A stretch of DNA of 64,000 nt from Enoplolaimus lenunculus (lineage: Eukaryota > Nematoda > Enoplea > Enoplida > Thoracostomopsidae), in contig JASANG010000082.1 in the NCBI GenBank assembly GCA_030248215.1, forward strand, positions 21,935-85,934, given 5' to 3'. How positions within the stretch are numbered: position 1 is the first letter of the stretch; each line of letters opens with the position of its first letter. This document shows positions 2,541 through 58,700 of this stretch, piece after piece. The notes under the pieces were generated by a model, which saw only the letters and a program-made list of their open reading frames with translations, was not told the DNA's origin and searched no databases. The position numbers and the translations under genes are program-made.

Positions 2541-2720
2541 ACAGAAACCTATATAATTAAAGCTGGAATACCCTCGCATACGTATTTTGGACACGTTTCT
2601 AGTGTACTTTTTTTACAATAGTTTACTAGCACACAAACAGGATGTTCTATAATTAGAAAATTTACATGCAGATTTTGTACGCATTTTCCAACACTTTTGT
2701 GCATTGCGCAAAGTTACACG
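2541..2720 (+). repeat. Dispersed repeat (TTAAAGCTGGAAT family), copy 1
   Basis: Shares TTAAAGCTGGAATnCnCCnCAnACGTATTTTGG-like sequence with 4030-4205, 45670-45850 and (reverse) 35100-35262. No inverted ends seen; could be a SINE body. From 2721 to 3340 I see no gene or repeat. Confidence 0.7.
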
Positions 2721-3340
2721 TCGGGTATTTTTTAATTTCAGCGTAAAAATTTCCTGAACTGCGTTTTTCAAATAAGCTTGTAAAATTAGATTTTAAACCA
2801 GTTATTTTTCAAATTGGGCCAAACGTTTTTGCATGTAACTTTTAAATCAGTTCTTCAAAAATTATGCTTGTACTTTGTATGCTAATCAGGTTTAGCCAGC
2901 AAAAAACCCGACCCAATTCAAAACAGCTTCCACAAAGATTGTTCATAGCTTAAAAACCTGGCCTTATGGCAACTTTTAGTGTATGAAATTGAATAAAAAT
3001 TTAGTTAAATTATAAGTCGGCTTCGAACTATAACAAATTCTAGGTATGGTCAGCCAGATCGGACGGATGGGCCTATAACTGTAGCCAAGTAATACCGAAC
3101 CAAAGTTTGGGAATAGGATTTGTGGCGGTAAGTAACCATATTGACATTTTTAAACTAGCGGATGTGAGTATAATAAATTTAAAAGTTTGCTACCATTACT
3201 TTTGTATCAGTTTTTACTATTACTCTCAGTTCTTGTACCTGTGTCAGTATACACGGTGTAGCTTGTGTATGTGCAGAGTGTGTAATGTTAAGACGCATAC
3301 ATACTCGTGCACATATAACATTAAAAGAAATTATGATATG

Positions 3341-3413
3341 GGCCGCGTGGTGTAATGAGTAGCGCGCTTGACTCGCGAGCCAGAGGTCCCAAGTTCGAGT
3401 CCCGGCGTGGCCA
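3341..3413 (+). pseudogene. tRNA-like sequence, probable SINE head
   Basis: 73 nt with a 7-bp acceptor stem (GGCCGCG with CGTGGCC), a 4-bp D stem and a B box AGTTCGAGTCCC. The loop CTCGCGA would give anticodon CGC, but the anticodon and T stems have mismatches, so a working tRNA is unlikely. Sequence to about 3600 may be the SINE body. 3601-4020 is AT-rich without features. Confidence 0.65.
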
Positions 3414-4020
3414 TGTTTAGGTGAAATTTAGGTGAAAAACTACGTATATTCATAGTACTCCGGAGAAAGGGGTCGTCCCGACCGTGCAGTTCTGACAGTA
3501 CACTACAGCTCGCTACGCCCCGCCTGGTCGAAAATTTTTGAATCCGCCTCAGAACTAAACCTAAACCTAAGCCTTTGCCTAAGCCTTTACTGACCGTCAC
3601 TGTCAGGTACTTTCCTTGTTTGAAAATCCGGCTGATTGTAGACTAAAATGGTGACCGACAAATGGTTACAAGATATTGTTTAAATACATAATACCGGCTA
3701 GAATATTTGTAATAAAATATATAATGACTTATAGATTTTTAAATTTTAAAATTTACTTAAATTATGATTATAAATTACAAATTCGCTTTTATTTTAAAAT
3801 TATTTTTTTTGCTTAAATTATTACTAAAATTAAACAAATATCAACTCCGAGTCACGCTAGACGTCAATTTGGTTTGATTAACAAAAAAACCGTTTTCGAA
3901 TACAAAATAAAATAATTTTTTATTTGAAACATTACTCAATTTTACCATTTTACACTAAATTTGAAAAAGTTTGTTTACTTACGTTAACTGTAAACTAAGC
4001 TTGTAAAATATTGGAATATA

Positions 4021-4210
4021 TCAATATATACGTATATAATTAAAGCTGGAATGCTCCACATACGTATTTTGGGCAACTTTCCAGCAATACTTTGCTTACA
4101 ATAAATTCTTGGAACATAAACATGATTGTTCTATGAAAAGAAAATCTGCATGCAGACGTTTGTATATTCGCTAAGTTTTTCGTATTTCGCAAAACCCACT
4201 GGCTATTTCT
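4021..4210 (+). repeat. Dispersed repeat (TTAAAGCTGGAAT family), copy 2
   Basis: Matches 2541-2720 and 45670-45850 with scattered differences, from TTAAAGCTGGAATGCTCC to the CGTATTTCGCAAA end. Confidence 0.7.
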
Positions 4211-4249
4211 ATATATTTGCAACGATTCAAAATGTCAAAACTGACATCG

Positions 4250-4412
4250 ACCACTGGATCGTTTTTCGTCCGGGCAGTAATAGAATAAGTTTAAGCTTTA
4301 GACTAACTTTTTTGCTCAGGCTTAGGCTTAGGAATAGGCTCAGCCTTACGCTTACGCTTAGGCTTAGGCTTAGGCTTAGGCTTAGGCTTAGAAATATGCT
4401 TATACTAGTGTT
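4250..4412 (+). mobile_element. Degenerate TTAGGC-bearing MITE
   Basis: Internal GTAATAGAATAAGTTTAAGC, TTAGGC run and TGTTCCGGCC end match the complete copies, but the outer termini are lost. 4413-4735 shows no feature. Confidence 0.65.
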
Positions 4413-4735
4413 CCGGCCATCAAATGTAGCGCTGTGAAAGTAAACACATTGCTCCAATAAAACTAGCTTCAGTGCTCTCCACACTGAAGCCAAAAAGCTT
4501 AGTGTGCAGCGCACTATCCCACACAAAGTCACCTTGTGTACTCATGATATTGTGGAATTTGCATTATAATGTCTACGTGGATATAAAAATTGTAATGTTT
4601 CTTTATGCTTACATTGCATGTTTCGTTTTGTTTCTCAAGTTCTACCACCGATATCATTTTGAATTCTATTTTTGTACAGAATGTTGGAAATACACAGTCC
4701 GCATGACCCCTGGTCGAAGTTTTGCTCAAAGTTAA

Positions 4736-4806
4736 CGACCACGCCGGTAATCGAACCTCGACCCTCTTGCACTCGAGCCAAGCATTCTACCTCTCGGTCA
4801 TGTTGA
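4736..4806 (-). pseudogene. tRNA-like sequence, probable SINE remnant
   Basis: On the minus strand: A-box-like TGACCGAGAGGTAGAA, a CTTG/CAAG anticodon stem and a B box GGTTCGATTACC. The 5' acceptor strand does not pair with the 3' GGCGTGGTC, so it is not an intact tRNA. Resembles the 3341 copy. Confidence 0.6.
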
Positions 4807-4967
4807 CAATTGCAATAACTTCATATCCCGGTATATGCGCACTATTGCAATCTATGCTTTACATAAACTTACCGTGCACATATTATATCGGCACAAAATA
4901 TTTGGTATTGGAACATGAATATTGAAAAACTGTTATCTTAAAATTAACATTTTGTGTTAAAAATAAC

Positions 4968-5230
4968 GGCTCATGTATATAACAGGGCCGGATCCTTTTC
5001 CGGAGGGGCTGTAATAGAGTCAGTTTAAATTTTAGACTAATTTTTTAGCTTAGGCTTAGGCTTAGGCTTAGGCTTAGATTTACGTTTAGGCTTAGGCTTA
5101 GGCTTAGGCTTAGGCTTAGGCTTAGGCTTAGGCTTAGGCTTAGGCTTAGGCTTAGGAATATGATTAGGCTTAGGCATAGGCTTAGGAATATGCTAATACT
5201 ACTGTTCCGGCCCTGTTCTATACATGGGCC
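4968..5230 (+). mobile_element. TTAGGC-bearing hAT-like MITE (GGCCGG subfamily)
   Basis: Ends GGCTCATGTATATAACAGGG and (complement) GGCCCATGTATAGAACAGGG. Target duplication AAAATAAC / AAAATAGC. Core is about 18 TTAGGC units. 5231-5777 holds nothing recognised. Confidence 0.85.
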
Positions 5231-6093: not shown

Positions 6094-8119
6094 CCCATTT
6101 GTTCCCGAATAAATTTTTTTCGCACGAAAACAAAATGCTTGAGTTATTTTTAATAAAACGGGTATTTTTTATAAAGTTTTGCCATTTTTAGCCCGATTAT
6201 TGCCCAATCTGCGCTACTGTGGTTTGTTCCCGTTTTGGGAACAGTGGGAACCAGAGGCTACACGGTTTTGGAATAAGGAATTAGTGTACGTGTACTAAAA
6301 TAACTACTACAAAACCAGTTACAGTTTAAATTCTGTTCTAAAGTCAAGTTCAGGTCACTTAAATTTATCAGTATTAATCAATTTTCTGTTTATCTTGCTT
6401 CATGAAAATCCTTGGAGCATTCCTCATGTAGGTTGACCCGACATTTCTCGCACATCTTACGGCTATTTCGTTTGCATAGTGCGCAGCGATTCTGTTTTTC
6501 GGCAGTGATCAGGAAATGATTTATATTGTCTTTTCGTACGTTGTCAGACACCCTTGTTTTGATATTTTTTGCCGTCCGTGGTCGCCCTGGCCCTTCGGCA
6601 GGTGTGCGATATTTCATCAAATACGATTTTGCAATGTAGCGGCGAAATTTGAGTTGGTCGAATTGGCGATCACCCCCAACTTGATCTCGATGAATATGCC
6701 ACGCGTTTTGACAAGCTGCATCGACACAATAAGCAATTATTGGCCAATACCACTTCTTCCCTCGCATCGAAATTCTGTATTTTGCTATGTTCTGATCTAG
6801 GCGATCCACACCACCCATAAACGAATTATACTGCGCAACTGTGTTTGGCTGTGTGACAGGAGTTTTACCTTTTCCGGTAACCCATCTAGTTGCGTGACAG
6901 ACAGGATTTACGGGATCTACGGTGCTAACAAGCGACACAACTGAGTTGTCGTCCAAGACACGATAAGTTTCTCACTCTTCTCATCGACACGGAAATCATG
7001 GGAGCCTCGAGGTTTCTTCGCCATCTTTGCCTTGTCTTCAACAGGACATCGCTCCGTCCGATTGGTCATAATCGTCCCCGTATAACCAATTCCTTTGTTC
7101 TTCAGCGTTTCAGCCAATTTGACGGAACTGAAATATCGATCGCAATATACAACTCGGCATTCATTGTCTAGGAGTTCCGACAAAAGGTCTATCACTACAG
7201 ATCCGCCAAGACCAACACCAGAAAGCCGAGCCATACCGCCTTGATACGGTTCAAACTGTAGTAAGTACCCCAGCCTTGAACACAAACACCAAAACTTATA
7301 TCCAAAACGTATTGGTTTCCCTTTCAAAAACTGTTTGGCACCGTGCCGACCATAATACGGTATCATCGATTCGTCAACAGAGAGTCGAAGCGGAATGGTC
7401 GCCATCTGCAGGAACCGTTCGTTCAACAAGACCATTACTGGCCGCACCTTAGCAAAGCGATCATTGTCGGCTAGCTGAGAATTGTAGGCAAAATGTATTG
7501 CAGTTTTGAGTTCGTCGAATCGATTTCGTCTCATTGCGTTGGCCACCATGCTATTATACGTCTCAGAATCTACCTCCCACCACATACGATATCGTGGAAC
7601 AGTAGCATATCCCGACAACAGTAAAATACCGAAAAAACATCTGATTTCCTGGACTGAGGTTGCAAAATTAACATTTCCTCGTACCGTGTGAACGTACTCC
7701 GTTGTCGCTTCAACGATAAACTGACACACTTGTACCCGCCCATTCCCACTGTTCCCAAACTGGGAACATTTTCATATTTGCTGACTTTCCAAAATAGCTG
7801 AACTCAGAAAACAAACTGTTCTCTTGTGATACAAACCACACTGCATGCTGCAAAAAACAGTTACTAATTGGCATATCCGACAGATAACCAGCTAGCTATA
7901 ACTTTCTTTTTTTGTGTCATCGTTATAGTTGAAGCAACGTGATGCGCCGGGTCGCAAAAAAATTAGTGTATAACATAAACAGTGGTTACTACTATTATAA
8001 AACGCTTTTAATACCAAGTCACGTTTTAGAATAGGATAATAACAAAACTAAAACATAGAACTAAAAATATAACGCATAAATCAAATGTTCCCACTGTGGG
8101 AACAGTGGGAGCAAATGGG
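6094..8119 (-). mobile_element. piggyBac DNA transposon with TTAA target duplication
   Basis: Flanked by TTAA on both sides (6090-6093 and 8120-8123). Terminal inverted repeats are CCCATTTGTTCCC on the left and CCCATTTGCTCCC (reverse complement) on the right, one mismatch in 13. Subterminal copies of TGGGAACAGTGGGA and its complement occur near 6235, 7745 and 8085, probably transposase-binding sites. Contains the broken transposase; 6124-6389 and 7730-8084 look non-coding. Confidence 0.9.
6390..7729 (-). pseudogene. piggyBac-family transposase (frameshifted, 5' end missing)
   Basis: Catalyses TTAA-specific cut-and-paste transposition in the nucleus. The upstream frame (6917-7729) holds the DDE/D core: SVDESMIPYYG (first Asp) and VVYCDRYFSS (second Asp). 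The third Asp, in FMGGVDRLDQ, lies in a second frame (6390-6956), so one frameshift near 6945 separates the catalytic residues. The C-terminus is the expected Cys-rich zinc-binding tail (CALC, CEKC, H, C, H). The upstream frame has no ATG, and the N-terminal acidic region found in the family is absent: the reading begins at FIVEATTEYVH, well inside the usual fold. With the frameshift this makes a silent copy likely. It lies inside an element with matching TTAA ends (6094-8119). Confidence 0.9.
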
Positions 8120-30500: not shown

Positions 30501-33500
30501 TTGTGTAAACGGCGCTTTACTCAAAAAATCTTCTCATTTACTAAAATTCGTTTGGGTTTCATTTACTAAAACAGATTCTATTAAAATTAAACTTTCCAAT
30601 TTTCAAATTTTTTAATTTTCATCAAAAATAAACAAAGATTAAAGCTACGTTTTGAGTTGAGCATTAACGAAACAATGACTCACTTGTATTCCATTCGATC
30701 AAATCTTACACTGGAATTATTGCTCGCATTAGGGAACATGGCTCCGACCCCCAGTGAATCAAACGGATCCACGGTGGTCAGGGGTCTTGTGTAGGGTTCC
30801 ACGGTTGCTGGGGGTGGTGGTGTTTGTTCGACGGTGACAGGCGGAGGTTCAGTAGGCTTGGGTTGAACGGTAATTTCAACGCTAGCGTTTGATGCCATCG
30901 ACGGAGTGCCAAGATCGCGAGCTTCGACGAATAGCTGAAATTGGAATAATATAATCGATGCTGACGTGTTCGTTTGGCCAATCAAAAGAACCACAAGAAC
31001 GAGGCGAATACAAAAATATTTTGTCCAACCAGATTTTACAAGGGCGCTGCGTCACATGGAACCAATCAAAAACGCGCAATCATACACTCTTAAAGTGATA
31101 AATTGCAGCCAAATATTTCAATTGGTTAATGACACACTTATGAGTTGGAATCAAATGTTTCTAAACTCAGGGCTGGTATTCGTTAATGGCTATAGCACCT
31201 ATCGCCAGTTGCCGATAGGCCGCAGCCCTTTTGAACTGTTGGATTGTACCCTAGTAACCTGAAATTTATCATATCTACATTGGTTGCAGTTCGCTAATTT
31301 AAGGCTTATTGCTAACTGGTGATAGTTGCTACACACATTTGAGAATACGAACTCTAAACACAGTGCCGGATCCATGGGTTTAAGGACTCTACCCGCTTAC
31401 GGACGCTTATTAGGGATACGGACTCTTATTAATTGGGACTCAAAATGGGGACCCCCTCTTATTTGAGTCACTACAGTATGGGTCAAAAATAAGTTTATTA
31501 CCTGTGAAATTTTGCCCCCCCATTCTGAGATCTTGGATCCGCCGCTGTCTAAACATAAATGATAATGAAACATTCCAGCGGCAATCAAACAAATGCGGTG
31601 TTCTTTACCAGATAAGACTGCGGCACAGACGAGTAAATCGTGTCAGCAACGCTTACAACACCAGTTTGATTATCAACAGAGAACAATCGCAACGCTTCTA
31701 CGCTTCGTCCGTAAAGCGAGAAAATCATTTTATTATTTGGAGCCTAAAATATTTTCAAAAATTTAAAATTAAATTTATATACTCATTTGCAGAAAAAAAT
31801 TACCGCAAACGGTACCGAAAAGTTAAAAATACATGCCACCGAAAAATTCATTTTAATTTTCAATTTAATTCATATAATCAAGAGTGGATGATACTCTTGA
31901 ACAAGAGTATGTATCTGGGTACATTCTGTGTACAAAACAATACCCGGCACGCGTTGCGTTTTTAGCCGATCCCCTTATATAATGGGGTCACAACCTGTGT
32001 AAACCATGGCACTTTATGTATCCAGCATCAAAATGCTCCTCGTTTAGTTTAATTTAGGGTTGTTGCATGTGACAGTGACCTCCTGTAAATCAGGGGTCAG
32101 CCAGAAACGCAACGTCGGCCGGTACATTATGTACCATGCGGAACTCCATTGGCTCTCTTAATATATTCAAGCATGTGTCATGACTACTTAACACCCAACG
32201 GCGAATTCAGAATTTAAAATTAAATTTTCCAAAAAATTTCATTTTAACGTCAAATTTTTTAAACGTTTTACAAATAACGTTCGACTTACGGTAGCGTCTT
32301 GATCGACAGCGTTTACCCGAACTACTGGAGTACCAACCGGAGCTTCTGACAGTAACGTTGCTGTATACGATGGCGGAGTAAACGTCGGCGGCCAATCATT
32401 AACGTCCTAAAACAAAAAAAAATTGATTTTAAATTTCAACCAAAATTAATTGGACGATGATACTGTAGATTTTATTAATTTTCAGCTTTTGAGTTTTGAA
32501 ATCATTTTTTTAAGTTTTAAACATTTACAGCCAAAATTTGGGTTTTTGTTGACAATTTTAATTTATTCCAACGAGACGGGACCGTCCGGGATTATATATA
32601 TGCGACGGCGCTATAAATTGATCTGTAAATAAATACTTTCAGCTTAATACGGCACAGCCTGGGGGTTGGGGCATCGGCGCCGCGCGCGGGTCCGTAGCCT
32701 GAGAAAACTCGGCGAAGCTCAGTACCAAAAAAATTTTAACCCTTCCCAAGTAAGTACTGGCTACCGCCAATGTTATGGTAATTGACATTACATTATTTCG
32801 CTTAGGCATAATCCAATTTAATTAAAGTATAAACCGTACTGAAACTAACGCTATATTGCCAACACGTCACATATCAAACAGTTTTAATTAAGCCAAGTGT
32901 TGCGTCTTGCATGAAAATTACAAAATTGGCAGCTGCAACAAAAACTGTACGTGTGACTGCACATACTTAAATTGATTTTATAAATTGCCAAAAATTTCAA
33001 CTCAACTTTGAATACAAATTTAAACTCAAACTCAACTTTGAATACAAATTTAAAACCAACTCAGCTTTGAATACAAATTTAAACTCAACTCAACTTTGAA
33101 TACAAATTTAAACTCAAACTCAACTTTGAATACAAATTTAAACTCAACTCAACTTTGAATACAAATTTAAACTCAACTCAACTTTGAATACAAATTTAAA
33201 CTCAACTCAACTTTAAATACAAATTTATACTCACAATAACACGAATTTCAACGGTCGCAGTTGAATCCGGGTTCAACAGTTGATTTTCGTTCGTTCCAAT
33301 TACAATTCGATGAAGTTGTGAGTCTTCGGCGTTTAAACTGCCCAGTGTTGTGACAATTCCTAAAACAATTAACAACATAAAATTAGTGATGACCAAAAAA
33401 AAAACGAAAAAAAATTGTCAGTAATTTTAACGAAATAATAAATCTTTATATTTTAGCTCTATGCCAAAAATTGTTACTAAAACAAACGAAAAATTTTGCC

Positions 33501-36500
33501 TGAGAAACAAAATTCACAGAATAAATCTGAAATATTCAAACGTGGGGCACCACAGACTAGGGTTCTGATACAAAATAGGGGGATGATTGCTATGAGCAGG
33601 TACTATTTCCTCTATCATTATATAACCAAAAAACTGCTGCACCATTGCATTTATACCATTTTTGCCTTGGTGACGGAGTGATTTTCCGATAAATCTGCGC
33701 TTAATATCAAACAATTTACCTGTTCTGCTGTCTACAGCAAACAGCGTAGGATCACCTTGCCTTAGTTTGTATGTTATCTGCGGATTGCGATCGTCATCTG
33801 TTGCCTAAAAACATCAGTAAACACAATTAAACACAATTAATGTAATAAAATAAAGCTAAAATATTTTGGGCAGCGTTCCAGCTGATTTTTACGCTTCAAA
33901 ATATTACGTGAAAGTTACAAAATCCGAACAACCAGGGATGATCACTTTAACAAGAGTGTGTGTGCAACTACCGAAATTTGTGTGGTACAAAATGTACCAC
34001 CGGGCGTTGCATTTTTGGCCGACCCCTCTTATTTAGAGGGGGTGGTTGATGTGTGAAACGTAGAATGCGCATGCTTTTAAAATTATTAACGGAGTTAATT
34101 TTACAACTGCAATATTCCAACGGGTAAAATTACAGAAATTGTCAAACTTCATCCCTCTTAAATAAACGGGGTTGGTCGAAAACGCAACGCGTGCCGAATA
34201 CATTCTTCTGGAGACAGAATGCACCCAGTTGCACACTCTTGTTATACAGAGTGATCATCCACTCTTGGTAAAACCAAGGCATCAGTACTTTTAGAAGCAT
34301 ACCGATACCAATACTTTTAATTTTACGGTATTCTAAGACAATTTGCGTTGACTTTATATAATTAAGTAGTCATTATATACTCATCACGGGACTCTCGCGA
34401 ACATAGCGTGAGCACCAGAAACAGTCCAATAACAGACGACTGACGGGATTAGTGCCTTTTTTCGACTGTCAGGGCTTGTTTTTATGGCTGCAGCAAATAT
34501 TCTAAGAAACATTCTTGACAAGAAGTTGTATCTCGGCACAGAGTGACGCCCATGGAAAATTGCTTGACATTCTGAATCTCTTGTTCAACCCCTTTTGTTA
34601 CTGCGAGACATTTTTAGCTTGTGCTGTGTGGCACTAAGCAGTAGCCGAAATTAGGGTTGGCTTACATAGGCTACAGAAAATTGCAATTTGCTGAGAATAG
34701 GTTCGCGCAGGTAAGTATTGTAACACCACACCGCATATATATTCAATAGAGACTCGATCTCCTGCCCTATGAGAAAATTCGCAAAACACCTCCCAAAATA
34801 ATCGCATGAGTTACCAATGTACTACTCTACGTATTTCAGTAAATTAACAATTAATTCATAAGCTCACTGAGTAATAGTCGTTGAACAATTAGCATTAGAA
34901 TGTTTTCAACCTTGCTTGTAACTCATTGAAAACCTTTGAATGAACTCATTAAAAAGTTTTAGCCCCCCTGCAAGGTGAGCTGGCTACGGGCCTGTGCACG
35001 TTGTTTTCACATGTGCAAGTGGACTAAGACATCTTCGGCCCTAAGCTAAATTGTTGTCTGGGTTGTTCATATTAAGTGAAAGAAATTAAAAACTGGTTAT
35101 TAAAAAGCTGTAGTGCTTTGCAGATGTATAAAACACATCACAAACGATAGCTATTCTCAATGCATACAGTCTTAATTTGCATACGCAACGTAAACAAAAA
35201 TCTGTTGGAACGCTGTCCAAAATACGCACGTGGGGTGTTCCAGCTTTAATATATAGATAAGACAGCATACATGACAAAAGACAAATTAAATCGCAATTCG
35301 CTTTGATATGAGTGTTTGGTGGAATGACGTGCGCTTCATAATATGAGTAGAATAATAGCTGACTTAATTTAAGACAATCGCTCGGCAGGCGCGTAGCCAG
35401 CTCACTATGCTAGGAGGGGCTAAAAATTTTCACGAGGGGCATACCAAGGTTTTGTTGACTTACAAGCAAGGTTGAAAATTTTCCAGGGATTGCTCAAAAT
35501 TTTTTCAGCGGAAACTGCGCCCCCTTGTCCGCCACTTGAATACCGGCCCGTCTCTCGGGTCTGTCACAACGTAAATCGGAAATTTGAACATCAAATAACA
35601 CAAAATCACAAAAGAAATTAATGAAATTTGTGAAATAAAATTCTTAGCTTAATTTATTACATATGAGTTGATGGAGGGTGCAAGTAGGCGTATATAAAAA
35701 TCGGCTTTTTTACAATTCCTGTAAATTTAGTGCTAAATTTGTACAAAAGTTTAAGCGTAAATGTGGAAGAAAGTGTTGAAAATTCAATAAAATTAAAAAA
35801 AACTAACCTGAACCGTAACCAACGCGATAGGCCCTGAATCTTCGGGAACCGGAATTTGGTACAAAGTTTGTTCGAAATAAGGAATCGAATCGCGAACGTT
35901 ATTAATCGTTACAAGCACATCAGCTGTTGCCTAAAAATCAAAATATACATAGCGTTACATCTTAATATGAAATTGAAAATATTCATGCGAGAAAGGGTTT
36001 AATGATAAAATTTGCTTAGTCAGTATCTTTAAATTTGCCAAATTCTTTTCTGCGTTAAATGTTTAAAAATTTAATCTGTAGATTGTTGCTCTAACTGGAA
36101 TAATCAAAAACATTTACTAACAAATATATGAATAAAAATAAGAAAACAAAAGTAAACAAATGAATAAATGAATCAGTAGATTTAAAATAAATAAATAAAT
36201 AAATAAATCAAATGAGTTAAGAAAATAAAGAAAAGCAAAAAAATTAAAAACCTACCGATAACCGTGGGCGGCCTTTGTCAATGGCTTCAATTTTAACGAT
36301 CATCTGATCCGTTTCCGCGTTCGACAAATCCGATGCCAAATACAGCGTTGCATTGACTGGATCGATGTTGAAGAAACTAAAATAAAAAAAATAATTTAAA
36401 AAAACTGCAGATTAAATGAAGAAACTAAAATAAAAAAATTAACTTAAAAAACTGCAGATTGAAATATTAGCGTTTAAGCCAGGGTTGAGCAGGCAGACAC

Positions 36501-39500: not shown

Positions 39501-42500
39501 GTACATTCTGTGTATTTCAGAATGTACCCGGCACGCGTTGCGTTTTTGGCCTACCCCCCTTGTTTAGGGAGGGGGTCTGTATGCAGTTTTATAAACGTTA
39601 TTTACGCATACAAACATCTTTAGTGTGATATAGTTGACCGCCCCCTTAAATGACGGCGGGTAGGTGTACTGAAGCATACTATGTTAACCTCTTGCTTAAA
39701 CCCCCCTGATTGAGGAGGGGGTCGAACAAAAATGCAACGCCTGGTAGATTCTTTAATACACAGAATGTACCCAGTTGCACACTCTTGTAATATAAAGAGT
39801 AATCATCCACTCTTGGTGCTACACACATTTGAAAATATCGAAATATTAAAAAAGTTTAAATTATTGTTAAAATTGAATTACCTTCGTTTGTTAATATTAA
39901 ACCGGCCATCGACGTTGCCACCGATAATTGAATAAGTCAACGGATCTTCGGGACCGCGGGTTGAAACAGCCTGAAACAAAAACAAAGTTATACCGTCATA
40001 TAATGTATTAGTTAATTTTCAGAAATTCTAACTAAACACAATTTTCCGTTTGAGTATTTGATTTTTTAAAATCTGCAAAAGTGAATCAACCTGAAATTCA
40101 AATATCCCGATGGTTATAAACGAGAAAATATACCGCTAGCTGTAGGTATTCACTGAATTAATCAGGTTAAGTGTTGACAAAATTTTTTGGGAAAACTATC
40201 CTGGTTATGTTCAGATTACTGGTTCGCAGTTCCATCTTGATTAAGAACGCTGAACTGTTCTTTTCTCACAGTTTATTTAAACTTATTTGTCATCCAAAAG
40301 TCACATTTTGACTTAAATTGTGATTTAAGCAAATCATTTAATTCAAAGTGTAAACGGATAGCAAAAATAACGGAAACGAAAAATGAATGTTTAAGTTAAA
40401 AAAGTTTCAAAAATGTTTTATTTTTATGCCAACCCAGTTGAGGCGTGCATATATATTTACTGGTTTTTTAAAAATTTAAAAAAACAAATGGCGGATGTAT
40501 CGAAATGTTTTAAGATTTTTTGTACAAATTTCACTATTTTATTTCATTTCAAGCAATTGCAGCATATATCAGTAACGAAAAATTGCAAGTTATATACGTA
40601 ATTCATAACTAATTTTTAAACTTTAAAAGAACAAACGAAAACATACGGTTACACCCTGCGTTAATTTAAATTAAGTAAACGTCAAGTTTCTACTTAAATT
40701 CGTGATTTATGTAAATTCTTAAATTCGAATTAAGTAAATACTTAATTTAAATATTTTAAGTAAATCATTAGAAATTCAACCTATGTTTCTAACCTGAACT
40801 TGGGTTAAAACTTCGCCAATAGTGACCGACTCCGGGACTTCAATTGTATTTGCAAGAACAACGAATTGCGGAGGCTCGCCAGGCGGTGGAGCTAACGTGC
40901 GCAGTTGCTCGTCGTCAACGTTAATAACCACAACCGCTTGGGCTTTTCTGAAACAAAAATATGTAACTTTAATCAGCTCGAAGCGAAGCATTGAGTTTTT
41001 GGACAATTATAAACTTCAACAAAAGATTTTTGTAATAGAGCATAAATAGATGCTACACACATTTGAGAATACGGTCAGTAGTGTAACGAAAGTTTACGTC
41101 GCTACAAACCCACCACGAATGCATATCTGGACATTTTCATGTTTGATTCCGTAAAATCAAGAGTGGATGATGCATACTTCAACAAGAGTATGCAACTGGG
41201 TACATTCTGCGTAGAAAACAATGTATCCGGCACGCGTTGCGTTTTAGCCCTATCCCCTTTTATTTAGAGGGAGGTACAACCGGTGTGAATCATGGCACTT
41301 TATATATGTGGTGTCAAACATTCTCCCCATATGGTTTAATTTAGGGTATTCATGTTACAGCAACCCCCCTCTAAACATGGGGAGTCGGCCAAAAACGCAA
41401 CGCCCGGTGGTTTTATTTTAAGCAAACTTAATAAATTCTTAGATACACATAATTTTGGGTCTGCACTTGTTACTTAAACCAAAAATAAGCTTAACTTAAA
41501 CTTGCGTTACCGAGTACAATATTTGCAATTATGTATGTCTACTGAAGTGTAGAATATCACATTCGCAGCTGTCATCGTAGCCGCGTGTTTGATACCTGAT
41601 TGCTTAACTGACTTTAGATGCTACACACATTTGAGAATAACGGCTACTAAAACTACTAGCACAGTGGAAACTTAGTACCTGCCACCTCCATCAATTGCTT
41701 GAAGTATCAGTTGATACTCGCGTCCTGGGGGTAGCGGCTCAACTGCGTTGAGAGATCGCGTTTCAGGCGAATACGTAAACAGACTCGACCCTCGATTCGA
41801 AACGGATAAAATCGAATAAGTCAACTGGCCAAATCTTCCTCGATCGCCATCGTTGGCTGATATCTGAAATGGTAACTCAAAAACGTATTTATAACACTTG
41901 CAGTCAGTCGTAATAAACTTTTTGAAATAGACTCAAATGGGATTACTGTAGTGACTCGAATAAGAGGTTGGAGACTGATATTTATTTCGCCTCCCCATAA
42001 AGTTCCATCCTCGCTATTTTACACAGGACTTTGGACTACACAGTTTTAATTTATGCCAACCACAGATTAAGTTTATTATGTTAGAAATACCGCCCTTCTC
42101 CACGTCCCCTAGGAGACCTGGGCACATGCCCCCCCCCGGCAAAACTGATCCAACATTCGTATTTGCACCTGTGGCCATTAACGTCAAGCACTGTGTTATT
42201 CACGCTCGTTTGGCTTTTTGTTCGCTTCGCTTGCAATTTTGTCCACCATTTTACGCATGTGCACCCTATTTCTTCATAACCTGCTGTACTTCTGGTCTGT
42301 TGACGCCATTCAAGAATCGTCAATTTCGCAAGTTAAGATGGCTAAGATGCCACAACCCTGCACATCCTCTTTACGTAGATACATCACGACTTTTGTTTCA
42401 ACTTATGTTCATTTTATTTCAACTTACGTTCATTTTATTTCAACTTACGTTCATTTTATTTCAACTTACGTTCATTTTATTTACGTTCATTTTATTTCAA

Positions 42501-45500
42501 CTTACGTTCATTTTATTTCAACTTATGTTCATTTTATTTCAACTTACGTTCATTTTATTTCAGCTTACGTTCATTTTATTTCAACTTACGTTCATTTTAT
42601 TTCAACTTACGTTCATTTTATTTCAACTACGTTCATTTTATTTAAACTTACGTTCATTTTATTTAAACTTACGTTCATTTTATTTCAACTTACGTTCATT
42701 TTATTTCAACTTACGTTCATTTTATTTCAACTTACGTTCATTTTATTTCAACTTACGTTCATTTTATTTAAACTTACGTTCATTTTATTTCAACTTACGT
42801 TCATTTTATTTAAACTTACGTTCATTTTATTTACACTTACGTTCATTTTATTCCAACTTACGTTCATTTTATTTCAACTTACGTTCATTTTATTTCAACT
42901 TACGTTCATTTTATTTCAACTTACGTTCATTTTATTTCAACTTACGTTCATTTTATTTAAACTTACGTTCATTTTATTTCAGCTTACGTTCATTTTATTT
43001 CAACTTACGTTCATTTTATTTCAACTTACGTTCATTTTATTTAAACTTACGTTCATTTTATTTCAGCTTACGTTCATTTTATTTCAACTTACGTTCATTT
43101 TATTTCAACTTACGTTCATTTTTTTTCAACTTACGTTCAAAATATTTTGAAATTCAACATTCGGAATCGCTCGAACAGAATTGACAGGGTTCGAAAATAC
43201 AGGCGCGTGATCATTAGTGTCAACAACGTAGATTTCAAGCGTCATCGCTTTACTACTTCGTATTGGAACTGTGCCAACTTCCCGCGCTCGGACCTGAAAT
43301 CAAAATCTGCAATGGTTAACGTACAAATTGCAGTTCGGATACGGTTTCCCCCTTTGATTTTGTTTTTCTTCGTTTACTTTTTCGTTAATAGTGCAATTGA
43401 CAATAACAGCTCTCAACAGCATTAGCTTGAGTAAGGTGCGATATACTCGCCGAGCGCAGCTCGGGCCCGTAGCCAAGGGGGGACAGGGGGATTTAGCCCC
43501 CCTGGAAAAATTTTGCGCCCCTTTGCAAAATTTTCAATCTTGCTTGCAAGTCATTAAAACCCAATGCCGCCGCACGCCACCAAATAGGTTTTGCCTATAT
43601 TTTTGTTGGCAACAAATAGCGGCGAGCGGCAGCCCACGGCTGCGTCCGGCAGTTTAAAGTATAGCGTAACCCATAGCGCGGCGCTATACATTTGTTGACA
43701 TCCGGCACTGCCCGCCACCGTACGTTTGTCATGAGGCAGCCGTCTGGTGCCATCCAGCGCCGTCCGTTACCGTCCGTCAGCGCCATCCATCACCGTAGGT
43801 CACCTTGCGGTATCGTACGTAAATTACTCGTGTACGATACCGTATGCTGACGGACGGTAACGGACGGCGCCGGACGTCACCTCACAACAAATATAGCGCC
43901 ACTCTTCCTTTTATCAACCAAAACTTATTAATCCTTGCCTTCCATATGGTACCGGCCAGTCGATGTTTCGTTCAATGTTTCTCAATTTAACAAATTTTAG
44001 ACTTCGGTCGACGACCATTTAAAGTCCAAAATCAATCCAATCTAATATAATCGACACTTTTCGGTGAGTATTTAAACGTTTGTTTTGTTTAGTCGTCGCA
44101 AAAAACCGTCTGTTTATAGGCGAAATTTAACACTCGGCACAAACGTACCGTTAGTCGATACATTTCCGGCGGATTCGGTTCTTCGTAGTCGAGTTTGGGC
44201 ACATTGAGATAAACGTATCCGGCTTCGTTGATCGCAAACATCGACGCTCCGGAATCGGTGAGGATGTACTGATACGTTGCAGGGGGCATTCCTGGTTTCT
44301 GAAACACAAACAACATTTTTCAATATAAAAAACATAAAAATATAAACACGTTTTCGTCAATGTAACGTATACAACAGAGCAGTAACAGTAGTACAAGAAT
44401 ATTCTTAAGCCACAGTCTGAGCCAAAGCATACGCGTAAGAATACGCTTATACCTAAGCGTAAGCCTAAGCCTGAGCAATAAAATTAATGTAAGCTTAATC
44501 TTGCTCTATTGCAGTCCCACAGAAAAATTGTTCCGCCCTTGATCTTTATATGGGCCGACGTTTTAATAACTTTCAGAGATTGTTTCTGAGTCGAAATCAA
44601 AGTCATTTCATGAAAATTTGACATAAATGAGCTAAAATTACGAAGATTATGCCGAAACAAAAAACAAGCATTTATGCTCCTTTTTTGTATTTTACCTTCT
44701 AAGCTACCAACTTTTCCTTAACTTGCGGAAAGTTTTCTAAGCACAAAACAAATACTTTCAGCACTGTAAAATCCACAGTGAGTTGATTTTAACTCAGAAC
44801 GAGTTGAATCCATTCAGAAGTCTGAGCACTGAAATAGGTGTTTCATAACTCAAAATTTTGAATTGTTTGAACTCATTATGAGTCAATTAATCAACTTACC
44901 CAAAATTAATTTAGCTCAGTGTGAGTTAAATTTTACTGTTACTAACTCAAAAATAACCAAAAATAACTATTAATTCGCTCTCTGAATTGATTAACCATCT
45001 CATTGAAATTTACAGTAAACGTAGTGGCCACGTTCGTTGTTCCAGAGATAAATTTCGCTATAAACAAGGCATAAATGACAAAATACGAAACCAAACAGAA
45101 AAAAAGAAAATAGAAACACGCAATGAATATTTCAAATTGAAATTCAAAAAAATATTAATTTTAACAATAATCTCATTTCGAATTATTGCGTAAAAAGACG
45201 TTTAACTGTAATATGTCTGAGTCTAAAATTTCAAATTTAAAAACAACTTGCACCGCACGTATGCGATGTTGTAGCAATACAACTTGTGTCGACCTTTGAT
45301 ACAACTGCCGGCGGCAACACCCCCAAAACCTCTAACTTAGGTTCGTGATCCATGAAAAGAGGCCCATCTTGGCAAATCTAAAAATTTTTACGTGGACCAC
45401 GAAGTTGCTGTAGCTGTGAGATATTTCCATGGCGGCCCAGGTCCTGTTTAGAAGCGTCCGACTATCGTAACTTTTGGACAGAAATAAGCGACTCAACTTT

Positions 45501-48500: not shown

Positions 48501-51500
48501 GGGGACTAACTCCACCGTGCCGCGGACGTTTGAACGATCCACAAACCTTTGTCACAAATATTCAGTGACACTTTTGGTGGCATGTTTTTGTTGATTTGCA
48601 TATCCACGTTTTATTTTATGGTATTACCAGTAAGCCAGCCTACAGAGGACTTGCTTCCGGCGGTCTTGCTCTGAGCTTTGAAGAATTTGCGAAATTAATT
48701 TAGAATATAAACGATGCAAAACAACTTACCGGACTGTGTAAATTTTGTACAACGTTGTCAACGGTAACTCGCAGCCTTACGACAGATAACAAATCAGGCT
48801 CGCTAACACCGGGTTCACTGTTTGCCTGAAATAAAATTATTAATTGACGAGTACTGGCAATATTTAAAATTTGAAATTTAATCTCAAATTCAAAAGGTCC
48901 CAAACTTTGGTCAACGAACTAATGCTGTACTGTAAAGCAGAGTGGATCCGAAGGCGAAAACTATCAAAACCGGTGCGAAATTTTGCGGCCGAAGCCAGTC
49001 TTGTATCACGCCCCATACAGCGGCGAGCAGGGTTAACAAATCAAATAACTGCGGTCTGTTTGTGTATCAAATTTGCCTACCCGGTACGTTGGAAATCATT
49101 TCAACAATAAAATTTGAAACTTTTTTCACGGTTCAAACAGCATCTTTCAAAAAGCTTTATTTTTGTAAATAGCAAAAATTCAAAAAATAAATCGTTTAAG
49201 CTACAAACCGGCGTTTTATTGTTTATTAAAATGTTATTTTAGCGTCAAAAATTGCAAAAATTCAAAAAATAAATCGTTTAAGCTACAAACCGGCGTTTTA
49301 TTGTTTATTAAAATGTTATTTTAGCGTCAAAAATAGCAAAAATTCAAAAAATAAATCGTTTAGGCTACAAACCGGCGTTTTATTGTTTATTAAAATGTTA
49401 TTTTAGCGTCAAAAATAGCAAAAATTCAAAAAATAAATCGTTTAAGCTACAAAACGACGTTTTATTGTTTATTTAAATGTTATTTTAGCGTCAAAAATAG
49501 CAAAAATTCAAAAAATAAATCGTTTAGGCTACAAACCGGCGTTTTATTGTTTATTAAAATGTTATTTTAGCGTCAAAAATAGCAAAAATTCAAAAAATAA
49601 ATCGTTTAGGCTACAAACCGGCGTTTTATTGTTTATTAAAATGTTATTTTAGCGTCAAAAATAGCAAAAATTCAAAAAATAAATCGTTTAGGCTACAAAC
49701 CGGCGTTTTATTGTTTATTAAAATGTTATTTTAGCGTCAAAAATAGCAAAAATTCAAAAAATAAATCGTTTAGGCTACAAACCGGCGTTTTATTGTTTAT
49801 TAAAATGTTATTTTAGCGTCAAAAATAGCAAAAATTAAAAAAATAAATAGTTTAGGCTACAAACCGGCGTTTTATTGTTTATTAAAATGTTATTTTAGCG
49901 TCAAAAATAGCAAAAATTTAAAAAATAAATCGTTTAGGCTACAAACCGGCGTTTTATTGTTTATTAAAATGTTATTTTAGCGTCAAAAATAGCAAAAATT
50001 CAAAAAATAAACTGTTTAAGCTACAAAACGGCGTTTTATTGTTTATTTAAATGTTATTTTAGCGTCAAAAATAGCAAAAATTCAAAAAATAAATCGTTTA
50101 GGCTACAAACCGGCGTTTTATTGTTTATTAAAATGTTATTTTAGCGTCAAAAATAGCAAAAATTCAAAAAATAAATCGTTTAGGCTACAAACCGGCGTTT
50201 TATTGTTTATTAAAATGTTATTTTAGCGTCAAAAATAGCAAAAATTCAAAAAATAAATCGTTTAGGCTACAAACCGGCGTTTTATTGTTTATTAAAATGT
50301 TATTTTAGCGTCAAAAATAGCAAAAATTCAAAAAATAAATCGTTTAGGCTACAAACCGGCGTTTTATTGTTTATTAAAATGTTATTTTAGCGTCAAAAAT
50401 AGCAAAAATTCAAAAAATAAATCGTTTAGGCTACAAACCGGCGTTTTATTGTTTATTAAAATGTTATTTTAGCGTCAAAAATAGCAAAAATTCAAAAAAT
50501 AAATCGTTTAGGCTACAAACCGGCGTTTTATTGTTTATTAAAATGTTATTTTAGCGTCAAAAATAGCAAAAATTCAAAAAATAAATCGTTTAGGCTACAA
50601 ACCGGCGTTTTATTGTTTATTAAAATGTTATTTTAGCGTCAAAAATAGCAAAAATTTAAAAAATAAATCGTTTAGGCTACAAACCGGCGTTTTATTGTTT
50701 ATTAAAATGTTATTTTAGCGTCAAAAATAGCAAAAATTCAAAAAATAAACTGTTTAAGCTACAAAACGGCGTTTTATTGTTTATTTAAATGTTATTTTAG
50801 CGTCAAAAATAGCAAAAATTCAAAAAATAAATCGTTTAGGCTACAAACCGGCGTTTTATTTTTTATTAAAATTTTATTTTATCGTCAAAAATAGCAAAAA
50901 TTAAAAAAATAAATAGTTTTGGCTAAAAACCGGCGTTTTATTTTTTATTAAAATGTTATTTTAGCGTCAAAAATAGCAAAAATTCAAAAAATAAATCGTT
51001 TAGGCTACAAACCGGCGTTTTATTGTTTATTAAAATGTTATTTTAGCGTCAAAAATAGCAAAAATTCAAAAAATAAATCGTTTAGGCTACAAACCGGCGT
51101 TTTATTGTTTATTAAAATGTTATTTTAGCGTCAAAAATAGCAAAAATTCAAAAAATAAATCGTTTAGGCTACAAACCGGCGTTTTATTGTTTATTAAAAT
51201 GTTATTTTAGCGTCAAAAATAGCAAAAATTCAAAAAATAAATCGTTTAGGCTACAAACCGGCGTTTTATTGTTTATTAAAATGTTATTTTAGCGTCAAAA
51301 ATAGCAAAAATTTAAAAAATAAATCGTTTAGGCTACAAACCGGCGTTTTATTGTTTATTAAAATGTTATTTTAGCGTCAAAAATAGCAAAAATTCAAAAA
51401 ATAAACTGTTTAAGCTACAAAACGGCGTTTTATTGTTTATTTAAATGTTATTTTAGCGTCAAAAATTGCAAAAATTCAAAAAATAAATCGTTTAGGCTAC

Positions 51501-54500
51501 AAACCGGCGTTTTATTGTTTATTAAAATGTTATTTTAGCGTCAAAAATAGCAAAAATTCAAAAAATAAACTGTTTAAGCTACAAACCGGCGTTTTATTGT
51601 TTATTAAAATGTTATTTTAGCGTCAAAAATTGCAAAAATTCAAAAAATAAATCGTTTAAGCTACAAACCGGCGTTTTATTGTTCATTTAAATGTTATTTT
51701 AGCGTCAAAAATTGCAAAAATTCAAAAAATAAATCGTTTAGGCTACAAACCGGCGTTTTATTGTTTATTAAAATGTTATTTTAGCGTCAAAAATAGCAAA
51801 AATTCAAAAAATAAACTGTTTAAGCTACAAACCGGCGTTTTATTGTTTATTAAAATGTTATTTTAGCGTCAAAAATTGCAAAAATTCAAAAAATAAATCG
51901 TTTAAGCTACAAACCGGCGTTTTATTGTTTATTAAAATGTTATTTTAGCGTCAAAAATTGCAAAAATTTAAAAATAAATCGTTTAAGCTACAAAACGACG
52001 TTTTATTGTTTATTTAAATGTTATTTTAGCGTCAAAAATTGCAAAAATTTAAAAAATAAATCGTTTAAGCTACAAAACGGCGTTTTATTGTTTATTTAAA
52101 TGTTATTTTAGCGTCAAAAATTGCAAAAATTTAAAAAATAAATCGTTTAAGCTACAAAACGGCGTTTTATTGTTTATTAAAATGTTATTTTAGCGTCAAA
52201 AATAGCAAAAATTCAAAAAATAAACTGTTTAAGCTACAAAACGGCGTTTTATTGTTTATTTAAATGTTATTTTAGCGTCAAAAATTGCAAAAATTTAAAA
52301 AATAAATCGTTTAAGCTACAAAACGGCGTTTTATCGTTTATCAAAATGCTATTTCAGCGCCAATACCTGTTGGCGTTTTATCTCAAAACGCGAAAAATGT
52401 TTTGTATTTTTGACACGATTTTTTCACAGCTAAAGTTTTAGCGTACGAATGTGGTTTGAAACGTACCCCAACGTATAACAAATACTGACTCGGACCACCG
52501 TAATCAATTTGTCGAGTTTGAAATACTTCGGCAGATTGAGGATTTATAGCAAAAAATGTTGCATAATCTGCTGGTGTTCCTGAAATCGAATTTTAGGTTT
52601 TTGAAGTTTATTGATGAGCGACGCGAGTAACGGATAGCGATCAAAATAACGGAAACCGAAAACGAATAATTAACTGTGTATAAAATCTATGGTGCATGTA
52701 AAAATCAGAGGCGAAACGTTTTTGTGCAGGATTACAATTGATGAAGCTTTAGCTTTAGATTAATTTTTTGCCTAGACTCAAGTTTAGGTTTAGGTTTTGG
52801 TATAAGCTTATACTACTGTTATGGCCCTATTCTGCACATTGGTCAGTTTTATTTACGTACGTTGAAACGTAATTATCACCATTTTAAAATTTTAAATTAT
52901 TTGAATAATTTTCCTGTTCATGTGTTCGGCTGTTTTGAACCGACATTAAATTAAATTTTTGAGTTCCATATATGAAATGTTTTCGGACTCCTCTAAGCTG
53001 CTGCCTAACAAGTTGGTCTTGTAAAAATTACTGAATACACAGATATACAAAAGCATGCAGGAACTGTAGCCAGGATTCTGGAAAAACAGGGGGGTTACAT
53101 TTTATAAAAATTTCAAATGCGGGGATTCTTGTGTTACCAACTAGAAAAGGTCTTACAAACGACACGCCAAAAATAGCAAAAAGAGAATATGACAACAAGA
53201 TGAATATTCTCAAATACGTATAGCATCTATCATTATTTGGAATAGGTTTTCAAACTGCGAAAATATTAATGCAAATGCAGGCCAGAATACTGTTACTGAT
53301 CTCACGCCAAATCAGATGCAAAAAATGTGCTGAATTTCAAACAGTCGTCAATCGATACATGTTTAAAAGTTACAAAACCTATCACCAACTGGTAATTGAT
53401 ACTACTCGCATTTGAGAATATGGGCCCTAAATCGGCCTGGCGACATCTTCGTGTCCGGGTAACATTCTTACAAGCGTGTGACCGTTTTTGTATTGCAGCT
53501 CGAACAATCATAAACGCGAAAGCGACGTAAAGCTGTCGACATTAAAAAACTAACCATTCACAAAACTGTACATAATATTCGCATTGAACGAATCAGAGTC
53601 TTTTGCCAAAATCGCAATCGGTTTAATTGTTAGTTTGCCTCGATTTGGCTAAAATAAGCTTTTCCTATTGGTCAGTCAGTTACTGAACTGATCAAGAGCA
53701 GCCGCTACTGCAGGATCCAATGGGAGGCCCATCCAAGCCACGCCTTTTTAGCATGGATTAATATTCAAATTTTGGTATTTAGGTTTAATACTAAAATTGC
53801 GTATGGCTTCTTGATCGCTTCGCTCGCGAGCTTGTTTTCACTATCATAGCACACGTGCCTTCGACCAGAAATTTTTCAATATTTGAATAAAAGGTCTTTA
53901 AGTACACTGCTTCGCTACTAAGGCGACAACTGCTACTAAAACAGACAAAATAACGTTTGAACCATATAACATAAATATTTCAAGTAAAAAATTAGTCTAA
54001 AACTTAAACCTAATCGATCGCAGTACCGCAGAAAAACATGATACCTTTAAAAGTAACTTTTTAACTATCTCAGTACTGAATAAATATTTTCTCACAATCT
54101 CAGTACTGAATAAATATTTTCTCACAATCTCAGTACTGAATAAATATTTTCTCACAATCTCAGTACTGAATAAATATTTTCTCACAATCTCAGTACTGAA
54201 TAAATATTTTCTCAGCGCGCGGTTAAAGGATTACCGGCTTAATTCCTGCCTTCACTGTGGCGCTGTACTCAACGTTATCGCACGGTATTCGGGACGCGTT
54301 TGGAGTCACCGGTTTTGGACAGTTTGGATGAACAAAACTCGGCGGTTGATCTTTGCTGTCCATGACTTGGATTTCAAGCGTTGTCTCCGCTGATAACCGG
54401 AGCGATCCTGGGCTGGATTCGGCGTTATCCTATGAAAATATGACTCTTACACACTTTCGCTACTATTAACTTAAGCCTAAGCCTTAACCTAACATCACTA

Positions 54501-55702: not shown

Positions 55703-58700
55703 GTGTGTATTATAAAAGTATAGTATAGTCATAGACGGTTGCCAGGCACGAGAATAACTAAACTGATCATTTACAGATTTGAAAATGATCAGTTTAGTTA
55801 TTCTCGTGCCTGACAATCGTCTATGACTATCTATACTTTTATTATATTATGTTTATATCGTTTGGTATATATATTTATATATAATACCAAAAGTGATTGA
55901 AAGCCCACGACGTTAGACTGCACCTAAAAATTTCTGGGGGGAATAAACGTACAATGATATAGTATAATTTGTATGCGAGGCTGAAGCTAAAAGACAGTTC
56001 CTAAAAGACGTTCAAATTGATATGAAGGGCTGAGTCCTGAGCCCCTCGTGCCATGTGTAGTTGCGGTAAACAAGAATACCTCGGAAACTTGAACAAAATA
56101 TGGCGTTTTTTTAAATACTGGTCCATTATCGTTGACATCATCAATAATCACACCAATTGGAATTTCGTTCTGAAATCAAAAAAACCGGAACTTTTCAATT
56201 GTGACAGCTGAGAGGGAACGCTGTTGGACACAAGCAACAGCTCTAAATTGATATTAGTTTAGTCGCCGCATAACCGTTATTGGGGTTTCACGACAACTCG
56301 TCACCCTGACAACTCGCAACCCGAGCTGTCGGGCGACGATTTGTCGTACCTTATTGAAACATTGCTAGCAAATTACTGTCAGAATAATGGTCTCTACACA
56401 ATTCCTTTGCATGACAACTGAAACCAAATAAATGCTGTGATTTTGATGCAAAGTTGCTATTATGAATAACACGATTTTAAACTGCATATCTATGAATAAG
56501 GCTACCAGGAGTAAAATTTAATGTTGCGTACCAAAGAGCTGAGATTTGGCGACAGCCGCCTCCGGAACAACAGTTTAAATCAACCTCAATCTGCAATGAC
56601 CAACTTAACAATTACGGATTCGAATTGGCGAAAATTTAAAATTTCATAAAAATTACAATAAAGGTAAAAATTTAAAATTTCATAAAAATTACAATAAAGG
56701 TAAAAATTTAAAATTTCATAAAAATTACAATAAAGGTAAAAATTTAAAATTTCAAAAAAAATTGCAATAAAATAAACTTAAAATAACCTCAAATCGAAGT
56801 CCATCTCGTTCATAGTTGCATCTTAATTGCAGTGTAAGAACGTTGGTTGCAAGTTCCTGAAATCAATTTAGCGCTGAATACAAGCAATCGAGGGTAATAT
56901 TTATTTGATCTCTCCAGACGGCACCCGCCTCTGTTATTCGGTTACGGACTGTTATTTATTCTTAACCTGTACTCCGCCGCCTTCTGTTACTGATATATAT
57001 CCGGTATTGCAATTATCCGTTGAATTGAACGTTTATATATTTTGTGTCAACAGCTTGAGCAATAATGCAAGGATAAAAACTTAAGTACGCTTTAAAGTTT
57101 CAAACTCAACTTTATTTGGTGGTGCAGTCATTTATGCACTACAATTAGGGATAATTGACATTTACGGATTCTAATTAGGATTTATAGACTCTATCCGCTT
57201 ACGGACTCTTATTAGGGATACAGACTCCTATTGATTGGGACTCAAAATGGGGACCCTCCTCTTATAACCCCCTCTTATTCGGGTCACTACAGTGCACGGT
57301 ATGGATCGGGCTATAGACGCTTGCTTATTGATGTTACTTCGGAACTTTTCAAATGACCGGTACTAGAAATGTTGAGGGACTCCACCAGTTTTAGAAACCA
57401 GCTGCAGTACAACTACATACTTACTTTTTAATCAGTTTAGTTATGCATTCCAAACTTATAAAGCACAAGCGGATAGTTTGAACCAATTGCTTTCAAATTA
57501 ATCTAATATGCAAGCTAGTTCTTAGCTAACTATTCAATTATCAATTTTGGAGATTTATAAACAATATATTCAGATAGCTCGCACCCAAAAACCGTTCAGT
57601 AACCCTAATAAAAGTGAAATAATTTAAAAAGTACGATTTAAAGTTTTTGTAGCGAGATCATGCAGCAACAGCTTGCACATGCAATTTTAATTTGAAACCT
57701 TTTTGTTCAAACCTTTTAGTAGCAAATTTTTGATGCCAAAAATCTTGCTTGAGTGAATCTATAACGAAAATTTGAAATTTAATTAAATAAATTTTAAAAA
57801 TACAAAAATTAAACTAACCTCCCTGTCGATAGCACGATCCAGCATCAATTGTTTTCCCTGAAGCCGGAAGTAATTGCCAGGATTCGCAATTAACGCAACA
57901 CGAATTTGCGACAAATCGCCAAACAGATCACGTGACATATCAAGTATTAAATTTGGCAACACTGAAAAAATAAATAAAATACTGTATACAAAGTTAAAAA
58001 TATATAAAAAATAAACAATTTTAAGAAGCAAATGCAACTGCAATATTTTCTGTTTAAAGTAATTATAAAAACATTTTGATCGAAATCGCGCGGCATGCAG
58101 TTAAATTAATTTTAGTACAACACAGACGATCTTCAAATGGCCAATGTAAAGAACTGGGGCGGAACAGTATTATAAGCATATTCTTTTGCCTAAACCTAAA
58201 CCTAAGCGTAAGACAAGTTAATTCCTAAGATTAAAACCTAAGCTTAAGCCAAGCGAGAAAAATAGTCTAAAGCGTAAGCTTACTCTATTGCAGTCCCACA
58301 GAAAAACGTTCCGCCCCGATCTTTACATGCGCCCTTCATATTAATAAAATATCGTCTATTACCGCTGAAATGTCCACATTGCGTACACAAATTAAAGTAA
58401 ACGATGCCATTACCTGGTCCTTGAGTTTCGTTTATTCTATACAGTAAGCCACCGGTTGGTGAATTGGTTAAGCATACTGAAAAGAATTAAAAAGTAATTT
58501 ATACAGTAAACTGTAACTATAAAACAAGCCAGCTCCTTATAAAATACTCAACAGCCTTAATTACATCACAATTAAATGTAAATGAATAGTCTGTTTTGAG
58601 TAATAATGTGGTAATTGATAAATTACTATATACAAATTACTTTTCCAAGATTTTTCTAAATTCACAACCATGAAAACCATTTTTTATTAAAACTTTACGT

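Follow-up and report, generated by a model that had tools for sequence, protein, structure and literature searches.

In the lancelet, minisatellite-like duplications of exon-intron boundaries, known as mirages, have been described in Adh3, in the globins BflGb6 and BflGb9, in troponin C and in PGBD5, and the excerpts of these reports considered here describe normal, undisturbed splicing (PMC3087553, PMC3902484). Here we analyse a stretch of 64,000 nucleotides (nt) of DNA (the window), in which a cadherin gene carries a 21-base-pair (bp) minisatellite that begins in the last bases of an exon and repeats its 5' splice site (donor) along the intron. This array is best read as a mirage in a nematode. 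The features concerned, all on the minus strand, are the following:

43135..43293, minus strand: cadherin exon of 159 nt (53 codons), with acceptor TTTCAG, ending in ...EFQNILN and followed by GTAAGT.
42391..43139, minus strand: 21-bp minisatellite of 36 units, all derived from the exon-intron junction, unit ATGAACGTAAGTTGAAATAAA, defined by Tandem Repeats Finder (TRF), the unit list and the column and donor counts.
41864..43134, minus strand: array-bearing intron of 1271 bp, of which 744 bp are array.
41679..41863, minus strand: next exon, in frame with the first donor, placed by exon joining and by the alignment of relatives.

TRF reports the array with 36.0 copies, 94% matches and a score of 1337. 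On the minus strand the 3' end of the exon reads TTGAAC|GTAAGTTG, and the array covers its last five bases (TGAAC), the passage from exon to array being gapless; the unit combines exonic TGAAC with a donor. A preliminary description of this locus had traced the array to the splice donor, from or over which it would have grown, and the composition of the unit agrees with this. Its estimate of about 35 multiplied donor sites has to be adjusted: the donor-bearing array is real, but it has 36 units and seven of the 36 donors are damaged (three GTAAGC, two ATAAGT, one with a base lost and one GTAAAT). Counting all positions, GT is retained at 34 of the 36 donor positions and GTAAGT at 29, and 22 donors are identical to copy 1 from -5 to +8. 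Simulation of 2000 sequences under a first-order Markov model of this exon and intron gave a mean of 1.1 GTAAGT and a maximum of six, against the 29 observed. Variants are ordered along the array, with, e.g., a four-unit block that recurs, which is consistent with growth by several units at a time. Three core words of the unit have no occurrence elsewhere in the window, and a search of the 296-Mb genome for a 30-base pattern taken from the unit gave 17 exact matches, every one inside the array. On the plus (antisense) strand, long open frames of 401, 322 and 126 codons run through the array (41979-43422 region); these are mechanical, since a seven-codon repeat is free of stops.

The arrays presented here share the anatomical features of the lancelet mirages as these are described in the excerpts considered (PMC3087553, PMC3902484). 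In the window, the array spans the exon-intron boundary (42391-43139 against exon 43135-43293), its unit is of minisatellite size (21 bp), and the units contain splice signals (34/36 GT, 29/36 GTAAGT). The differences are that the organism is a nematode and that the arrays have from 2 to about 100 units, compared with 3 and 6 units in BflGb6, and that normal splicing was reported in the lancelet, whereas here the use of copy 1 is deduced from a protein alignment. As far as the corresponding source excerpts go, internal tandem repeats at the exon-intron boundaries of human segmental duplicates are likewise boundary minisatellite expansions able to alter gene structure, but these lie in recent paralogs, where they alter exons or give rise to new introns, whereas here the exon is unchanged (PMC2812944). 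Where introns are gained through tandemly duplicated AGGT segments, e.g. in a potato RdRp gene, the duplication likewise bears a splice motif, but it creates a new intron, whereas here an existing one is likely lengthened (PMC4974935, in part). Judging by titles and the openings of abstracts, with subscription literature mostly outside this scope, no published nematode case of junction-spanning arrays was found.

Candidate exons were delimited by a script with nematode-like splice sites, whose site weights were not trained. When 20 exons were joined, the first 18 (44298 to 27718) were free of stops and the last two broke the frame, and the main exons were matched in the same order by relatives from C. 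elegans, Diploscapter and Haemonchus. A Cylicocyclus relative aligned across the junction of the array-bearing exon over 125 residues, with 53 identities (42%) and no gaps, which indicates that the true donor is copy 1, at 43134; copy 1 is thus likely the donor in use. Translation past copy 1 reads Val-Ser-stop (VS*), so any later donor would terminate the protein. The immediate stop, which the preliminary description had predicted, is therefore present, and its statement that only the first copy yields the full-length product is supported by this read-through together with the gapless alignment. Among nine donor junctions examined, eight give a stop on read-through.

By sequence similarity, the gene is a nematode cadherin. 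Six cadherin stretches were matched in the searched part of the protein, Pfam giving general cadherin models, and the best PDB chain was CELSR1, with PCDH15 scoring below it. In a large protein search, vertebrate multi-cadherin proteins had the top overall scores, and the cadherins of C. elegans and of strongylids were the most nearly identical, at 38-39% across about half of the query. The name PCDH15, given to the gene in the preliminary description, is not supported by these similarity searches, and neither could the array-bearing exon be confirmed as exon 14, being the 12th of 30 modelled exons, all inside the window.

We consider it probable that a 21-bp stretch straddling the junction was multiplied to 36 units, with the exon-proximal donor likely still in use and the others likely inert. 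The array would have originated in a small tandem duplication across the donor, of which the two-copy cases described below resemble early steps, and it would have expanded by slippage or unequal exchange. If the spliceosome stays with the exon-adjacent copy, the duplicate falls in the intron, where it would be harmless and the repeat free to grow; if another copy is used, the protein would be broken and the allele lost. Only duplications with the exon-adjacent copy in use would then survive, the extra copies becoming intronic, and nonsense-mediated decay would presumably remove transcripts from later copies. Since survivors would show a viable exon-proximal copy, as seen here, survivorship has to be borne in mind. 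As 22 of the donors equal copy 1, the choice would have to be made by exon-side cues, such as exon-bound SR-type proteins, or by the order of transcription. In human DOK7, according to the part of the report considered, exon-bound SRSF1 steers between two close donors, away from the intron-distal one (PMC5585400); exon-side cues thus exist, but need not point the exon-proximal way.

Further repeats lie at or near splice sites of the same cadherin gene:

32997..33233, minus strand: second array, 29 bp x 8.1, starting at donor 33234 (TRF; first unit 23/29 by eye).
36369..36465, minus strand: 48-bp two-copy tandem duplication over the acceptor at 36376 (TRF).
56631..56771, minus strand: array of 36 bp x 3.9, starting 16 nt past a modelled donor, which lies outside it (TRF).
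54067..54214, minus strand: array of 30 bp x 4.9, starting 20 nt past a modelled donor, which lies outside it (TRF).

At 36376, use of the upstream acceptor copy would lead to a stop after four residues, so that again only the exon-adjacent copy is viable, in line with the proposal of a donor-seeded array whose first copy remains in use. In another intron of the gene, 103 nt past its donor, there is an array of 82 bp x 39 (49167-52363).

Five further genes whose protein could be recognised also have tandem donor copies that start at the end of an exon:

RXR (locus L052, G000:C147), about 2648-5000: 23 bp x 102.6, i.e. about 100 units (TRF).
Rhodopsin-type G-protein-coupled receptor (GPCR; 7tm_1, 1.4e-13): about 18 GTAAGT; in TRF, a compound unit of 90 bp in 6 copies.
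EGF protein, two inverted paralogs (loci L049 and L050, G000:C115; EGF_CA, 8.2e-9): 9 and 12 units.
T-type calcium channel (PDB, 9.6e-26): 19 bp x 2.
OTUD7B (PDB, 4.5e-14): 32 bp x 2.

The RXR array is the most extreme donor array seen: the exon of the DNA-binding domain (zf-C4, 2.1e-20; aligned with human RXR-alpha as far as MKRE, E 3.3e-27) continues directly into it, and it holds 81 copies of AAG|GTAAGT. In these confirmed cases the units measure 19 to 32 bp, apart from the longer compound unit that TRF assigns to the GPCR array. The EGF paralogs lie about 20 kb apart, their two longest alignments are 98.0% and 93.7% identical and the printed part of the exon is the same in both, and they provide a natural comparison of array growth (9 against 12 units, as paralogs in one assembly). 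In four more cases (L042, L044, L047 and L048) the exon is predicted from an acceptor and an open frame, and scanning the exons of L042, L047 and L048 yielded no family matches.

The preliminary description had suggested a donor decoy, a length-dependent splicing switch or a U1-binding sink, which on the present comparison appear less likely. As a regulatory device, the competing donors would divert some of the transcripts to the Val-Ser stop, and the length of the array would tune the amount of cadherin, as a decoy or rheostat. Such competition is plausible, with GT retained in 34 of the 36 donors and 22 of them matching copy 1 exactly between -5 and +8; every later copy would also stop the protein, and the arrays of the EGF paralogs differ in length. 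We nevertheless regard the rheostat as improbable, because genes with no relationship to each other have similar arrays, built of unrelated units and ranging from 2 to about 100 copies, an anatomy that a mutational by-product fits better than a device of a single gene, and the array at donor 33234 has lost GT at the matching place in its later units.

The sense strand of the window array (42391-43139) contains 34 AATAAA, and 28 units hold GTAAGT and AATAAA together. Donor-bound U1 could then silence premature 3' ends at these putative polyadenylation signals, loss of U1 giving a truncated, secreted cadherin, and the stop codon just past the exon would suit such a product. Against this, one AATAAA per unit could be chance in an AT-rich unit, the first unit of the window array is itself without AATAAA, and so, by eye, are the RXR, GPCR and EGF units, and we give this U1 guard very little credence. 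For the rheostat or decoy, as for the U1 guard, support is confined to the window array.

Long tandem arrays are often mis-sized in assemblies, and there is one assembly, so that the array might have been created or resized by assembly error. This is very unlikely in view of the ordered variants in recurring blocks, of the two EGF paralogs, whose arrays at the same junction are related but unequal in size, and of the two-copy cases, which need no assembly of a long array.

Several observations weigh against the proposal that junction-straddling duplication with continued use of the first copy explains these arrays, or limit its reach. A genome-wide excess at donors is not shown, since GTAAGT triples gave 714 matches, compared with 574 for the reversed pattern, and pairs of AAGGTAAGT gave 77, compared with 39 for the control, yet 68 of these 77 lie within the RXR array, leaving nine; these figures are matches and not distinct arrays. 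We consequently dropped the idea of a donor "hot spot": for the GTAAGT triples the reversed pattern comes close to the same frequency, and a single array accounts for the excess of AAGGTAAGT pairs. From the listed places of GTAAGT triples we took 15 loci with 16 array groups, leaving out C48 and C81; among these listed matches, four groups start at a family-matched exon (L040, L049, L050 and L052, representing three genes) and four at a predicted exon (L042, L044, L047 and L048), whereas the remaining eight have no exon at their start. The six distinct places of AAGGTAAGT pairs comprise three confirmed cases (RXR, calcium channel and OTUD7B), one predicted and two with no exon. Sequence picked without regard to arrays showed no arrays at donors: in another cadherin gene (9.9 kb, nine domain matches) the nearest array lies 370 nt past the end of a match, and in four EF1A loci there was no array on the donor side of any exon found (L062 not being scanned for repeats), the one repeat there being an 18-bp two-copy repeat 18 nt from an acceptor. 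At L042 (G000:C32, minus strand, donor 3009), where three tandem 18-bp donors follow a predicted exon, read-through stays open and would insert VSELFR once or twice, so later copies there need not be harmful. Finally, the use of copy 1 in the cadherin gene is something we infer from protein alignment. Outside the window array, six of the 37 GTAAGT in the window are modelled donors, so that much is explained by the frequency with which donors supply GTAAGT; ordinary tandem duplication that occasionally strikes a donor may be enough.

A bolder version, which we hold to be rather unlikely, is a strict exon-proximal rule, by which exon-side cues alone would select the first donor in a row of as many as about 100 near-equals. 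Donors would then be free seeds of minisatellites, introns would grow from their 5' end, and the length of the array would set the loss to unproductive splicing. How a donor is selected from several equivalent ones is a long-standing question, for which two or three sites have usually been compared. The present arrays offer a natural series of 2, 9, 12, 36 and about 100 donors that are nearly identical, and selecting the wrong one would nearly always stop the protein. They also place junction-seeded minisatellites outside lancelets and point to a likely route of intron lengthening.

Within the cadherin gene, four of the eight intronic arrays with at least three copies start no more than 20 nt from a donor (expected 0.30, p = 0.0001), as do four of all 15 intronic arrays (p = 0.0011), the statistic being post hoc, as the clustering was seen first and then tested, in one gene. 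On the acceptor side of the same gene the count is three of 15 arrays (expected 0.51, p = 0.014) and one of the eight with at least three copies. A clustering of arrays at donors is weakened by this acceptor signal and by the post hoc test on a single gene. A scan for copies of the junctions (at least 16/20 matches) found one at 1 of 30 donors and at 1 of 30 acceptors, whereas random intron places reached this threshold in 0.1% of cases when arrays were excluded and in 4.9% when they were counted. A match of 13/21 between the last 21 bases of the array-bearing exon and a rotated unit was rejected as too weak, being reached at 50 of 30,933 places.

Interstitial TTAGGC-type runs, which we take to be nematode telomere-like, are scattered across the window (e.g. 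2274-2329, 4314-4391 and 5048-5186). Together with EF1A they identify the organism as a nematode: the EF1A sequence is 91% identical to that of Trichinella murrelli, 89% to those of Xiphinema index and Enterobius and 86% to that of C. elegans, Trichinella being the nearest named organism after a metagenome protein (93%), and perhaps the organism belongs to clade I. The search for SL1 RNA gave no matches in the assembly, nor in any of the 14 control genomes, and COX1 had none in the assembly. The window also contains, at about 6390-7771 on the minus strand, two transposase fragments, each in its own frame and searched separately (DDE_Tnp_1_7, 2.6e-58 and 3.8e-13), which are presumably piggyBac-like.
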